From contig MKVF01000021.1 of assembly GCA_001899145.1 (NCBI GenBank), positions 248,001-312,000 of the forward strand: DNA of 64,000 nucleotides, read 5' to 3'. Both the position numbers and the translations under genes were made by a program. This document shows, piece by piece, positions 22,130 through 29,515 of this stretch. Under the pieces are notes generated by a model. It saw nothing but the letters and a program-made list of their open reading frames with translations, ran no database searches and was not told the origin of the DNA. This DNA comes from Flavobacteriia bacterium 40-80. Lineage in GTDB: Bacteria; Bacteroidota; Bacteroidia; Flavobacteriales_D; Crocinitomicaceae. How positions within the stretch are numbered: position 1 is the stretch's first letter; the number at the start of each line of letters is the position of its first letter.

Positions 22130-22137
22130 TACTTTTG
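22130..22137 (+). promoter_or_regulatory. Bacteroidota -7 element for the TPR protein gene
   Basis: TACTTTTG is an exact TAnnTTTG match 42 bases before the ATG at 22180, in the spacer shared with pruA. No clear -33 TTG at the best distance. Confidence 0.45.
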
Positions 22138-22179
22138 TTCTGTGAATTTCGTTATCTTCAAAATCAAATTTTTACAGAA

Positions 22180-24087
22180 ATGAGGTTTTTCTTCTATGCT
22201 ATTCTCTTGTGTTTTATATTAACCAATACTGCGAAAGCTGAAGAGGACCTTTTTTACAAACAATATTCCACCACATTAAATGCCATAAAAAATAAGAAGA
22301 TCGTTTCCCGGAGCGAGCTTTCCGATCTGTACGATTATTACAGTGAGAATAATACGGATTCCCTCTATTACTATTCCAGAAAAGTGGTGGAAACAGGCAT
22401 TGAAAAAGAAAATTTCTTTTACATCAATTACGGGAAATCACTGATGATTTCCTTTTTTAATCATAAATCAAAGACAGACGTTGCCATACAGCTTGGTGAA
22501 CAGGCGCTGAATTATTTTTATAACGTTTCTGATTATGAGATGATCTCATTCATACAAAACCAGCTGGGTATTTCCTATATTATGGATAATAATTATGTAG
22601 AAGCACGAAAATGGCTGTGGAAATCTGTGAAATCGGGAAAACAGACGAATGATTTTTCCGTGAATTGCATTGCCCTGAAGAACCTGGCGGAAGCTTATTA
22701 CCGGGAAGGAGAGCTGAAAGAAGCGTTGCAGTTTATCAACGAATTCACGTCTATTATAGAAAAAACGAATAATTACATCGCATTAGGAAAAGCTTATAAT
22801 ACGATGGGTAACATCTATCGCGACATGGAAGACATGGAAAAGGCGGAAGTGTATTATCAAAAATCATATAATATCGCGCAGCAGAAGAAATCCGCAGTTT
22901 ACACGGGAAATGCGCTTACTAATATGGCGATCGTTTATTATGAAAGTGATCCTGAAAAGGCGAAATCTTATTTTTTTAAGGCACTGGAAGTAAGAAAAGA
23001 AACAAAAAATCCGACGTTCATTTCCGAATCCTACCTGAATATCGGTCACTGGTATTACGGGATGGACTATATGGACAGCGCTTATTTTTACTATAAGCAG
23101 ATGCTTGATTATTCTGTGGAGAATAATTATGAGCAGGGAGAGCTGGAAGCGTACGATGCACTGGGAGATTATTTTGAAACAAAAAAGGATTATAAAAGTG
23201 CTTTTGCCTATATTCTGAAATACAAGAATTTACTTATTAAATCCAATCGTAAAAAGCAAAAACTATTAGAAAATGACATCCAGCAGACATACGAGCTTTT
23301 TAATAGTGAGGACAAATTAATGCAGGCATTCAGGAAAAAGATTATTGACCAGCGGCTGGATGTGGAAACCAAGAAAGCAAATGTTGTCCTGATGCTGTTC
23401 CTGGGAATTATTGTTTTCCTGATAGCATTATATATCTACAACGTCCGGAAAAATTATAAAAAAGAGCTTTCCGTTATATCAGATTCAGCGGAGCAGGACT
23501 CCTCACAAAAAGGCTTGATTGATCAGACTTTGATTGATACTATTGAAAATTACCTTTCCGATAAAGCGATCAGCCAGGATTTCTTACCTGAAAATGTCCA
23601 TGTTTTTAATGTGGCGACGGGATTTGGGGTAAAAAATGATGTGATCCTTTGGACGGCAAAAATTCCAAACTTTGAGAAAGTGATTGTAAATAATATTTTT
23701 GTCAGCCATTATAAGATTGAGAGTTTTGATCATTTCCTGCGGGTAATCAGTACAGATCAGTATCTGAAAAATCTGAAGATTGTTTATGTTTATTTAAAAA
23801 CAGAAGGCCAAAGTATCATTGCTTCAGGAAATGCCTCCTATCTTTTGAGCCCGGAAGGGGCTTTCTATGAGCTGTCCGATTGCGGCAATGAATTAAAATC
23901 CGGCAATTGCCTTATTACGAAAGAATTTAAAGATATATTGGTCAGAGACGGACTCTTTGAAGATTTTTTAAGTCAGCTAAGGCTGAGCAGAGAAGTTTCC
24001 AAAGAAGTTTTTATCAAATCATTTGAAAACGGCTGGCAGGATTATATTAATAAGAATAAATCAGGTGTTCTGGTCGTTACAGAATAA
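22180..24087 (+). CDS. TPR-repeat membrane protein with diverged C-terminal domain
   Basis: 635 residues from ATG 22180; the upstream TTG at 22135 is rejected because this ATG begins a proper signal peptide (ending NTAKAEE). About seven TPR-type helical pairs occupy residues 60-330, a charged helix follows, then one TM segment near 402-424 and a cytosolic domain of about 205 residues. In that domain LKIVYVYLKTEGQSIIASGN and ASYLLSPEGAFYEL resemble the end of SpoIIE/PP2C phosphatase domains, but the usual metal-binding Asp positions are not evident. It may be a signalling protein descended from the TPR-SpoIIE family of Bacteroidota, or a different fold. No HTH is seen. Confidence 0.65.
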   Translation: MRFFFYAILLCFILTNTAKAEEDLFYKQYSTTLNAIKNKKIVSRSELSDLYDYYSENNTDSLYYYSRKVVETGIEKENFFYINYGKSLMISFFNHKSKTDVAIQLGEQALNYFYNVSDYEMISFIQNQLGISYIMDNNYVEARKWLWKSVKSGKQTNDFSVNCIALKNLAEAYYREGELKEALQFINEFTSIIEKTNNYIALGKAYNTMGNIYRDMEDMEKAEVYYQKSYNIAQQKKSAVYTGNALTNMAIVYYESDPEKAKSYFFKALEVRKETKNPTFISESYLNIGHWYYGMDYMDSAYFYYKQMLDYSVENNYEQGELEAYDALGDYFETKKDYKSAFAYILKYKNLLIKSNRKKQKLLENDIQQTYELFNSEDKLMQAFRKKIIDQRLDVETKKANVVLMLFLGIIVFLIALYIYNVRKNYKKELSVISDSAEQDSSQKGLIDQTLIDTIENYLSDKAISQDFLPENVHVFNVATGFGVKNDVILWTAKIPNFEKVIVNNIFVSHYKIESFDHFLRVISTDQYLKNLKIVYVYLKTEGQSIIASGNASYLLSPEGAFYELSDCGNELKSGNCLITKEFKDILVRDGLFEDFLSQLRLSREVSKEVFIKSFENGWQDYINKNKSGVLVVTE

Positions 24088-26657: not shown

Positions 26658-26665
26658 TACCTTTG
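26658..26665 (+). promoter_or_regulatory. Bacteroidota -7 element for the ABC gene pair
   Basis: TACCTTTG is an exact TAnnTTTG match, 61 bases before the ABC ATPase ATG. No convincing -33 TTG is seen. Confidence 0.45.
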
Positions 26666-26726
26666 GTGGATAGATGTTTAATTATAAATTTGAGAAATAA
26701 GTAGTGACTAACCAAATTTTCTTTAC

Positions 26727-27866
26727 ATGATTCAAGATTTTCCTTCAAGAATAAATACCGCAAAAGATGCAATTGAACATGGTAACTACCAATACGGATT
26801 CAGGGCTTTTGTTGACTGTGTTTTAGATACCAATGATCCTGAATGGTTTAAAAAGTGCATTGACCTGGTGAGTGAAAAGGAGGATTACCACCTGAAAGAC
26901 GAGCAGTTTTACGGGAAAGTGCTGAAATATCTCGGGCAGATGAAAGGTGTGGTTGTGGACAAAGGCTTTACCCAGCTTTTGGAAGCGGAAAATATTTCAC
27001 GTTCCTATGGAGCAGGAAGATTTGCGCTTCAGAATGTTTCACTGAATATTAACGTGGGAGAAATTATAGGTCTGGTAGGAGAGAACGGTAACGGTAAAAC
27101 GACGCTGCTTCGTATTCTCGCACAAGAGCTCGCTTTTGATCAAGGTCAGATCAAATATTATCTGTTAGAAGATAATAATTATGACAGACGGACGAAATTG
27201 GTTTATATTCCTCAGCGTACACCGATATGGTACGGCAGCTTGTATGATAATTTAAAATTTACCGCTTCCAACTACGGAATTAAAGGAGAATTGAATCAGT
27301 TGATAGTGGATATGATGATCATTCGTTTCGGACTGTGGGAATATCGCAAGCTGAACTGGTCAGAATTATCTTCCGGATACAAGATGCGTTTTGAGTTAGC
27401 ACGGACGTTTTTGCGTAAACCACGGATTTTGCTGCTGGATGAGCCATTGGGAAATCTGGATGTAAAATCACAGCAGATTATTCTTGAAGATTTGAAAGGA
27501 CTGGCACAAAGCCCATCCAATCCGATAGGAATTGTACTGAGCTCACAACAGCTGTTCGAAGTAGAAAAAATCGCGGATAAAGTTTTATTTCTGCGAAAAG
27601 GAGTTCCGGAATTCTTTTCTGATAAGCAGGTTCAGGAAGAAATTTCTTTTACGATTATCGAGCTGGAAACGGATGCCGTGCTGGAACAGATACAGGAATT
27701 ATTTGCAAAATATCCTTCAAAAATCATGTTTAACGGAGGAACTTATACGATAGAGATCGGGCAGCCAAACGCATATAAGGAAATTTTAGCAAGATTAGCC
27801 GGTTCCGATATAGAGATCCGTTATATCCGTGATATTTCCAATTCAACAAGACGTTTCTTTAACTAA
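26727..27866 (+). CDS. ABC transporter ATP-binding protein with N-terminal extension
   Basis: 379 residues. Residues 1-80 are a helical extension rich in acidic and aromatic residues, and the ABC domain covers about 85-300. It has Walker A GENGNGKT (118-125), a variant signature LSSGYKMR (from 214), Walker B LLLDEP (D238/E239), and the D-loop LGNLD. The H-loop position reads LSSQQ, so the usual His is Gln274, which may slow ATP hydrolysis. A C-terminal part of about 80 residues follows. Twelve bases downstream is an 8-TM protein, its likely membrane partner. It is not FtsE or LolD by motif context. The transported substrate is unknown. Confidence 0.85.
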   Translation: MIQDFPSRINTAKDAIEHGNYQYGFRAFVDCVLDTNDPEWFKKCIDLVSEKEDYHLKDEQFYGKVLKYLGQMKGVVVDKGFTQLLEAENISRSYGAGRFALQNVSLNINVGEIIGLVGENGNGKTTLLRILAQELAFDQGQIKYYLLEDNNYDRRTKLVYIPQRTPIWYGSLYDNLKFTASNYGIKGELNQLIVDMMIIRFGLWEYRKLNWSELSSGYKMRFELARTFLRKPRILLLDEPLGNLDVKSQQIILEDLKGLAQSPSNPIGIVLSSQQLFEVEKIADKVLFLRKGVPEFFSDKQVQEEISFTIIELETDAVLEQIQELFAKYPSKIMFNGGTYTIEIGQPNAYKEILARLAGSDIEIRYIRDISNSTRRFFN

Positions 27867-27878
27867 TTTATTGAACCT

Positions 27879-29504
27879 ATGAACCCATTTAAAAAAATCA
27901 ACACATACCTGATTGAAAACCATCCTGATTTATGGCACGTACGCCTGCCTTTTCTTTTAATGACAGGACTTTTGCTGCACATATTCTCGTTTTTATACGG
28001 TTTTGAATATATTGATGAAACACGACTTGTAAATGATTATATTTCCGGTTCTATTGCGGACAGCTGGTACATTTTATTCGAGATTATATTACTTCTGGTG
28101 GTAATTGTTACCTGGGCGTTGCAGTTTTTCAAAAATTCCGTTTTAAAGCATTATTATGTTGCCGGAGATTTTTACGCTATCAAAATGTATTTGCTGCTGG
28201 TGGGGTTATTTCTTTGGAATATATCCAGCTTTCTGTCCTTTTATTATGGTGTTCACTTAAAAAGAGATGCTTTGATGAGCAAGTATGAAGTGAATGAGAT
28301 ATTCAAAGAAAAAGCGTTTTTAGATCCCTTACTGCTTTTAAGTCGGGAAGAGTATAATCTGTCGAATAATAAGTATCTGACTCAAAATGAGATAGAATAT
28401 AAGGTTTTGTATTCTTCTGAAGATGCTCCTCAGATCAGTTACTGTACAGAAGAAGATTACATATCCAGAAATTATGAGCAGGAAACGTACTTTTCATGCT
28501 ATACGGACGTATCTGATATAGACTCATCTCTCTTTTCAAAGTTAGATGATGATAACGCTGTTTTTTTCAGGTTAAAGTATCTGAACCGCGATGAAAGATG
28601 TGAAAGGAAAGTAATTGATAAATATGTCGTTTTAAATGATTTTCATTTGTATGATATAAAAAATCATTCAAATTATACGGATGAGCTGGATGGATTGTTG
28701 AAAAAGGAAGACTATAAAGTATTGGCAGAACGGCTGAAAAACTTTAAGACACGATTAAATAAGCTGGAGAAATTCACAAATTTCGATCCCTGGGTTAACT
28801 TATGTTATATCGTTAAAAAGAAGGGAATTGATTTTGAGGATATATACCGCGATTATGATCCGAATAAGCGTTTTATCCCGATTAACAATATTGATGAGGT
28901 GACAGATGATCTGAATATCCAGGCGATCGAAACCTATGGTGGCGATCATTATTATTTCAGGAACTATGAGCTTTCTATTTTGGAGAGTAACTTAAATGAG
29001 GATTTTGAATTTTATTACATGTTTATCGGAGCGTTGATAGGAAGTATAGTATTTTCCTATTTTATGATTCAGTTTCAATATGTTGATTTCATAAATTACG
29101 CTATCTCCATACCTATTTCAGGTGTTTTATCTATTGTGGGCTCTTTATTCATGCTGATCTTTACCTTTGTAATGAAAGAATACTCCGTTATTTTTTATTT
29201 ATTTTCAATGACCACGGCGATATTGCTTATATTGTTGCTGTCGGCTAAATTAAACGTAAGGTTAAAAGAGATTCTTATGATCCTGCTTTCAAGTTTTATT
29301 CCTGCTGCTGTCCTGATTTCTTATGCCTTAATAGGTATAAAAATATATACACAGGAGGTAACTTACGGAGGCTGTGGTGCTACAGAAACTTACAGTCAGT
29401 TTTTTACTCCTCCGTTCTACGAATGGCATTTTATCACTTTGGGATTATTTTCAATTTTTGCTTTTCTGTACCTGGTGAAGAAGCTGAAATCTAAACCGGA
29501 ATAA
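27879..29504 (+). CDS. Unrecognised 8-TM membrane protein, partner of the ABC ATPase
   Basis: 541 residues. Three TM segments (about 24-44, 64-84 and 101-122) precede a soluble region of about 250 residues (125-377) rich in Asp, Glu and Tyr. Five more TM segments follow (about 378-400, 404-432, 435-455, 465-488 and 515-533). The last loop contains GGCGATETYSQFF. I do not recognise the family. The layout of TM segments around a large soluble region recalls ABC-2 or MacB-like permeases, and the 12-base spacing from the ABC ATPase supports a transporter or mechanotransmission role, but this is inference. Confidence 0.7.
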   Translation: MNPFKKINTYLIENHPDLWHVRLPFLLMTGLLLHIFSFLYGFEYIDETRLVNDYISGSIADSWYILFEIILLLVVIVTWALQFFKNSVLKHYYVAGDFYAIKMYLLLVGLFLWNISSFLSFYYGVHLKRDALMSKYEVNEIFKEKAFLDPLLLLSREEYNLSNNKYLTQNEIEYKVLYSSEDAPQISYCTEEDYISRNYEQETYFSCYTDVSDIDSSLFSKLDDDNAVFFRLKYLNRDERCERKVIDKYVVLNDFHLYDIKNHSNYTDELDGLLKKEDYKVLAERLKNFKTRLNKLEKFTNFDPWVNLCYIVKKKGIDFEDIYRDYDPNKRFIPINNIDEVTDDLNIQAIETYGGDHYYFRNYELSILESNLNEDFEFYYMFIGALIGSIVFSYFMIQFQYVDFINYAISIPISGVLSIVGSLFMLIFTFVMKEYSVIFYLFSMTTAILLILLLSAKLNVRLKEILMILLSSFIPAAVLISYALIGIKIYTQEVTYGGCGATETYSQFFTPPFYEWHFITLGLFSIFAFLYLVKKLKSKPE

Positions 29505-29507
29505 AAC

Positions 29508-29515
29508 TATCTTTG
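29508..29515 (+). promoter_or_regulatory. -7 element directly before asnB
   Basis: TATCTTTG is an exact TAnnTTTG match ending 5 bases before the asnB ATG, so a transcript started here would have almost no leader. Confidence 0.5.

Follow-up and report, generated by a model that had tools for sequence, protein, structure and literature searches.

A conserved ABC ATPase and eight-TM permease-like protein pair from a Flavobacteriia bacterium, absent from the catalogues searched

Results

Gene pair at the locus

The window (the whole stretch of 64,000 nucleotides that was analysed) belongs to a 3.5-Mb genome and contains two adjacent ORFs on the same strand, 12 nt apart, which encode an ABC ATPase and a permease-like partner with eight TM segments (Table 1). 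Upstream of the ATPase gene lies a possible promoter of the Bacteroidota type; the pattern occurs 3 times in the window against 2.7 expected, so what speaks for this match is only its position. Downstream, an asparagine synthase gene begins 15 nt past the permease gene and is followed by a DUF2147 gene, both on the same strand, and the asparagine synthase was absent beside the pair in the other neighbourhoods compared. A few bases before its ATG, TATCTTTG (window 29507-29514) corresponds to the -7 element of Bacteroidota promoters, with no -33 element seen.

Table 1 Features of the pair in the window, and stand-alone relatives of the permease in other genomes.
Feature	Position	Strand	Remarks
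Possible Bacteroidota-type promoter, TTTG - 19 nt - TAAATTTG	26662..26692	+	Pattern match; ends ~35 nt before ATPase ATG
ABC ATPase, 379 aa	26727..27866	+	N-terminal helical extension, NBD and C-terminal regulatory-type domain
N-terminal extension, residues 1-80	26727..26966	+	Predicted four-helix domain; conserved D30, C31, D34
Gln274 codon, H-loop position	27546..27548	+	Invariant in aligned ATPases
C-terminal domain, residues 309-379	27651..27863	+	Predicted beta-alpha-beta-beta-alpha-beta; DISNSTRRFF motif at end
8-TM permease-like partner, 541 aa	27879..29504	+	3 TM + ~240-residue extracytoplasmic domain + 5 TM
Cytoplasmic TM2-TM3 loop, residues 84-98, KNxxxKxxY	28128..28172	+	Probable NBD-coupling element, from conservation
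Extracytoplasmic domain, residues 136-375	28284..29003	+	Mixed alpha/beta in model; variable
Stand-alone proteins, 3 TM + domain + 1 TM	L043:5752-6918, L044:5862-7034, L045:6331-7494, L046:5620-6825	minus	Near DUF6526 gene; uncatalogued

The ATPase

The ATPase was recognised by the Pfam model ABC_tran (PF00005; E 1.1e-25, 91.3 bits against a cut-off of 25), which covers residues 101-241 only. Its ABC_tran motif set is complete except for the H-loop His: Walker A (GENGNGKT at 118), the Q-loop (Q163), the signature (LSSGYK at 214), Walker B (LLLDE with E239) and the D-loop are kept, and the H-loop reads SSQQ at 272, placing Gln274 at the His position as had been noted from the window alone. Among 32 aligned ATPases, sister clade included, most motif residues were invariant, as were Gln274 and the catalytic Glu, and Walker A, Glu239, the Q-loop Gln, the signature and the D-loop were all kept and conserved. 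The Gln is also kept in 11 further members from the family of genome G388, two of which read SSQH instead of SSQQ. A His was found in every readable H-loop of the other ABC cassettes in the same genome (a few could not be read by the script). The exchange does not bar the protein from the ABC ATPases, because H-loop variation is known elsewhere in the superfamily (PMC7756269). The signature had been read correctly by the original prediction but is less unusual than proposed there, since three other ATPases of the same genome carry LSKGYR, LSTGMK and LSKGMA.

The N-terminal extension of about 80 residues is predicted to form four helices (5-17, 21-35, 38-54 and 58-74; pLDDT about 75-93) and was present in every full-length member. 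When it was compared with the PDB, a weak phosphodiesterase match (E 2e-4) covered ~54 residues inside another fold and was taken as chance. At the other end of the protein, the predicted elements are strands 309-315, 331-336, 339-344 and 364-369 and helices 319-325 and 350-359. In a subset of type V transporters, the regulatory domain on the NBD consists of two helices and four antiparallel strands (PMC11466899), and the C-terminal domain of our ATPase is predicted, by secondary structure only, to have the same make-up as that of these ABCA-like exporters.

The best-scoring curated models for the ATPase were GldA, DrrA, a PQQ-associated ATPase and then PmtC, all far below their cut-offs; for example, the GldA model (TIGR03522) gave 105.8 bits against a curated cut-off of 402.6. 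GldA, DrrA and PmtC are members of ABC-2-type systems. In addition, PmtCD in the PDB aligns with the ATPase over its full length. A defence system was considered and rejected, as the PADLOC matches of the ATPase were generic ATPase matches and the 8-TM protein had none.

The eight-TM partner

The layout proposed earlier for the partner, three TM segments, a soluble region and five more TM segments, was recovered both from its hydrophobic segments (n=8; at 21, 65, 94 / 381, 413, 436, 465 and 518) and from an AlphaFold model based on 40 homologues (mean pLDDT 78, pTM 0.76), with a soluble part of ~240 residues at 136-377. In the model, the first three helices are TM1 23-44, TM2 63-85 and TM3 99-135, and the last five are TM4 378-401, TM5 404-431, TM6 435-454, TM7 460-490 and TM8 513-537. 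The loop charges agree with an N-terminus inside, a domain outside and a C-terminus inside. A short helix (3-14) precedes TM1, and its hydrophobic moment is within the top 10% of 12-mers.

Over 30 pairs, the ATPases shared a mean pairwise identity of 49% and the permeases one of 22%. The most conserved segment of the permease was the cytoplasmic TM2-TM3 loop (45% mean pairwise identity), followed by the N-terminal helix with TM1 (37%), and the external domain reached 19%. Such a pattern would arise if a conserved NBD were contacted by loop 84-98 and the outer part had adapted to partners or substrates that vary. Because Q274, the LSSGY signature, the N-extension and the 3 + domain + 5 layout recur in dozens of divergent homologues, these features of the pair are not due to chance.

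Distribution and linkage

The two genes were adjacent and co-oriented in every genuine match examined (about 52 pairs in four families). The non-redundant adjacent pairs numbered 40, plus 11 from the family of G388 and one truncated at a contig end (L016); in the 40, the gap between the genes ranged from -78 to +19 nt. Three false matches, G032 (L012/L024), G355 (L057) and G067 (L074), were left out. The permease was present in 11 of 99 relatives, with the ATPase directly upstream in each. When the permease and N-extension profiles were run separately on 395 sampled genomes of the phylum, each retrieved six genomes other than the window's own, and these six were identical. In G388, the N-extension alone was matched at first, and the next gene proved to be the permease. 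The pair was also found in about 22 of 121 genomes of a second genus and in 12 of 119 genomes of the family of G388, all 12 with both genes together. Unlinked orthologues were sought, the query with the N-extension alone included, and no genuine unlinked copy of either gene was seen in the genomes searched, which upholds the original prediction on this point.

The linkage was strict in 19 of 19 neighbourhoods compared, and no gene besides the pair was common to all of them, nor did any conserved neighbour point to a substrate. The evolutionary distances of the ATPase and the permease correlate (r 0.90), much of which shared ancestry alone could give. In G431 (L040:6927-8072), the ATPase gene is broken into two ORFs close to the signature motif with an intact permease downstream, which may be a frameshift or an assembly error.

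Sister pair and stand-alone relatives

A sister pair of ABC ATPase and 8-TM protein is encoded in four genomes (L070-L073) from the same family as the window. It shares adjacent genes, the 3 + domain + 5 layout, the SSQQ H-loop and a similar C-terminus (STRRLF), and hhalign gave 99.7%. However, its ATPase is shorter (~303 aa), lacks the N-extension and has the signature ISTGYR, and its permease (432-456 aa) has a shorter domain. Used as the query by itself, the sister permease retrieved no relatives from the 247 genomes sampled.

A stand-alone relative of ~390-400 aa, with three TM segments, the domain and one TM segment, was found in several genomes of the second genus and in one other. It aligns with the first 398 permease columns (hhalign 99.1%) and has no ABC ATPase beside it. 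Stand-alone proteins and the pair were not reported together in 121 genomes of one genus, a weak observation from few genomes. Since the sister pair lacks the N-extension and the stand-alone proteins have no neighbouring ATPase, the core can occur without the extension, as can the external domain without the motor.

Searches against known families and folds

The 8-TM protein, which the original prediction could place in no recognised family, had no permease match in Pfam, NCBIfam, PADLOC or PHROGs, its profile had none among PDB sequences, and its 40 homologues had no meaningful permease-family match in Pfam or NCBIfam. A fold search with the permease model found no PDB match at E<=0.001 and none in BFVD. 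The fold-search system itself works, as a fused ATPase and permease model retrieved >1,100 PDB matches in a search of this kind, those listed lying on the NBD. The comparison by hhalign with LptF/G and ABC-2 permeases of related genomes was negative but weak, because the ABC-2 control, two alignments both matching PF12679, reached only 8% probability. The LptF_LptG profile (PF03739) did not match the 8-TM protein, and canonical LptF/G are encoded elsewhere in the same genome. A mobile element was rejected, since the pair had no match when compared with phages and plasmids. No papers on such an ABC ATPase and 8-TM pair were found in the literature.

Discussion

The pair is real, well conserved, absent from the catalogues searched and within the ABC superfamily. 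The original prediction of an undescribed system is retained in the sense of a new family within that superfamily, but not of a new kind of machine; the pair is most likely a further ABC system of the export type. Transmembrane fold is the basis on which ABC transporters are classified. The permease family here is missing from the curated libraries searched, although it occurs in at least four families within one bacterial class.

In LptF/G, the extracytoplasmic domain comes after TM3. Type V transporters have six TM segments and an elbow helix, and type VI transporters have six TM segments without an elbow helix (Thomas et al., PMC8386196). Type V systems with an NBD regulatory domain (ABCA, PmtCD and DrrAB/GldA-type ATPases) resemble our pair in the ATPase scores, the predicted C-terminal domain, the permease helix before TM1 and the TM2-TM3 coupling loop. 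In contrast, our permease has eight TM segments rather than six, no ABC-2 family match and a large domain between TM3 and TM4, and our ATPase has a helical N-extension and an H-loop Gln. With type VI LptB2FG, the pair shares the position of the permease domain and a TM2-TM3 coupling element, but it differs in its eight TM segments, its elbow-like helix, the lack of an LptF_LptG match, the separate LptF/G genes of the genome and a predicted domain of mixed helix and strand rather than a beta-jellyroll. Hybrid type V/VI exporters have been proposed from predictions in B. subtilis (YhcHI, YhaQP, LnrLMN and NatAB; PMC11466899). Compared by description only, these hybrids also join a type V-like core to a sizeable extracellular domain and mostly have an NBD regulatory domain, whereas the extra TM helices, the N-extension and the H-loop Gln are found in the present pair. 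As modelled, the pair joins a type V-like ATPase and an elbow-like helix to a domain placed after TM3 as in type VI, and has two additional TM helices.

We consider it likely that the pair forms one homodimeric (2+2) ABC transporter of the export or mechanical type, with an uncatalogued TMD family, a type V-like motor and a type VI-like domain placement. As there is one gene of each, an ATPase homodimer would drive a homodimer of the 8-TM protein. ATP binding would close the NBD dimer, and this motion would reach the membrane part and the extracytoplasmic domain by way of the conserved TM2-TM3 loop and the amphipathic N-terminal helix. The TM2-TM3 loop, the most conserved part of the permease, is where NBDs usually couple and matches the site of the LptF/G coupling helices between TM2 and TM3 (PMC5548808), which was counted for a coupled transporter. 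The likeliest work would be to export, extract or flip an amphipathic substrate (a lipid, glycolipid, peptide or toxic compound), which the variable extracytoplasmic domain may receive or recognise. The helical domain at the ATPase N-terminus probably serves in docking or regulation and, being absent from the sister system, is probably not needed by the core machine. When the two genes were modelled as a read-through 1:1 chain (in frame, with the stop read as Gly), the domains folded but their relative placement was not resolved (pTM 0.57); the PDB matches of this model cover the NBD, and the membrane part had no good superposition.

Other explanations of the pair were weighed against this transporter. 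The permease may instead belong to a known family, type V ABC-2 or type VI LptF/G, and have diverged so far that both sequence and fold searches missed it. The elbow-like helix, the coupling loop and the ATPase C-terminal domain are as in type V, the TM3-TM4 domain is as in type VI, and the low control makes the negative hhalign result a weak one; however, 40 members without a meaningful permease-family match, a permease model of pTM 0.76 without a PDB fold match when the fused model retrieved so many, and eight TM segments rather than six make this origin somewhat unlikely. That the 8-TM fold lies outside ABC types I-VII and is driven by an NBD with a permanent His-to-Gln exchange and an acquired regulatory helical domain seems quite improbable. 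A purely mechanical role is a serious rival, although we regard it as unlikely: ATP cycles would shift the extracytoplasmic domain and thereby switch on or regulate a partner in the envelope, as in FtsEX and other type VII systems, and nothing would cross the membrane. Such mechanotransmission has been described for type VII (PMC11466899), the extracytoplasmic domain is large and variable, and the stand-alone relatives without a neighbouring ABC ATPase suggest an independent task for the domain. However, type VII proteins (MacB/FtsX) have four TM segments per subunit in another layout, and no conserved partner gene lies near the pair in the neighbourhoods compared.

The H-loop raises a different doubt, that loss of its His has made the ATPase a degenerate, non-hydrolysing protein whose NBD acts as an ATP-binding clamp or regulator. 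Gln274 is invariant, and ABCB2/B3 (TAP) and some ABCA proteins have deviating H-loops together with degenerate sites (PMC7756269). In MRP1, however, transport is kept with Gln or Asn in place of the His, with Gln at the wild-type level (PMC7756269), and the other catalytic motifs of our ATPase are intact, so that this reading is very unlikely. The ATPase of the proposed transporter is predicted to be active, perhaps slower, because the Walker B Glu is kept though Gln274 replaces the catalytic-switch His. A strict exchange of the His with the catalytic Glu kept is a natural case in which to test what this His is needed for.

Other observations

In some genomes, smpB-, clpB- or dnaK-like genes, named by eye, lie within ~10 kb of the pair (L039-L042, L015, L017, L019, L021 and L022), and in L042 the pair is immediately downstream of clpB. 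A function based on these SmpB-, ClpB- and DnaK-like neighbours was rejected, as their nearness probably reflects old synteny. At positions 22135-24087 of the window itself lies a gene for a TPR-repeat protein, which has a TM segment in its middle and a C-terminal domain of unknown type and may act as a sensor or regulator.
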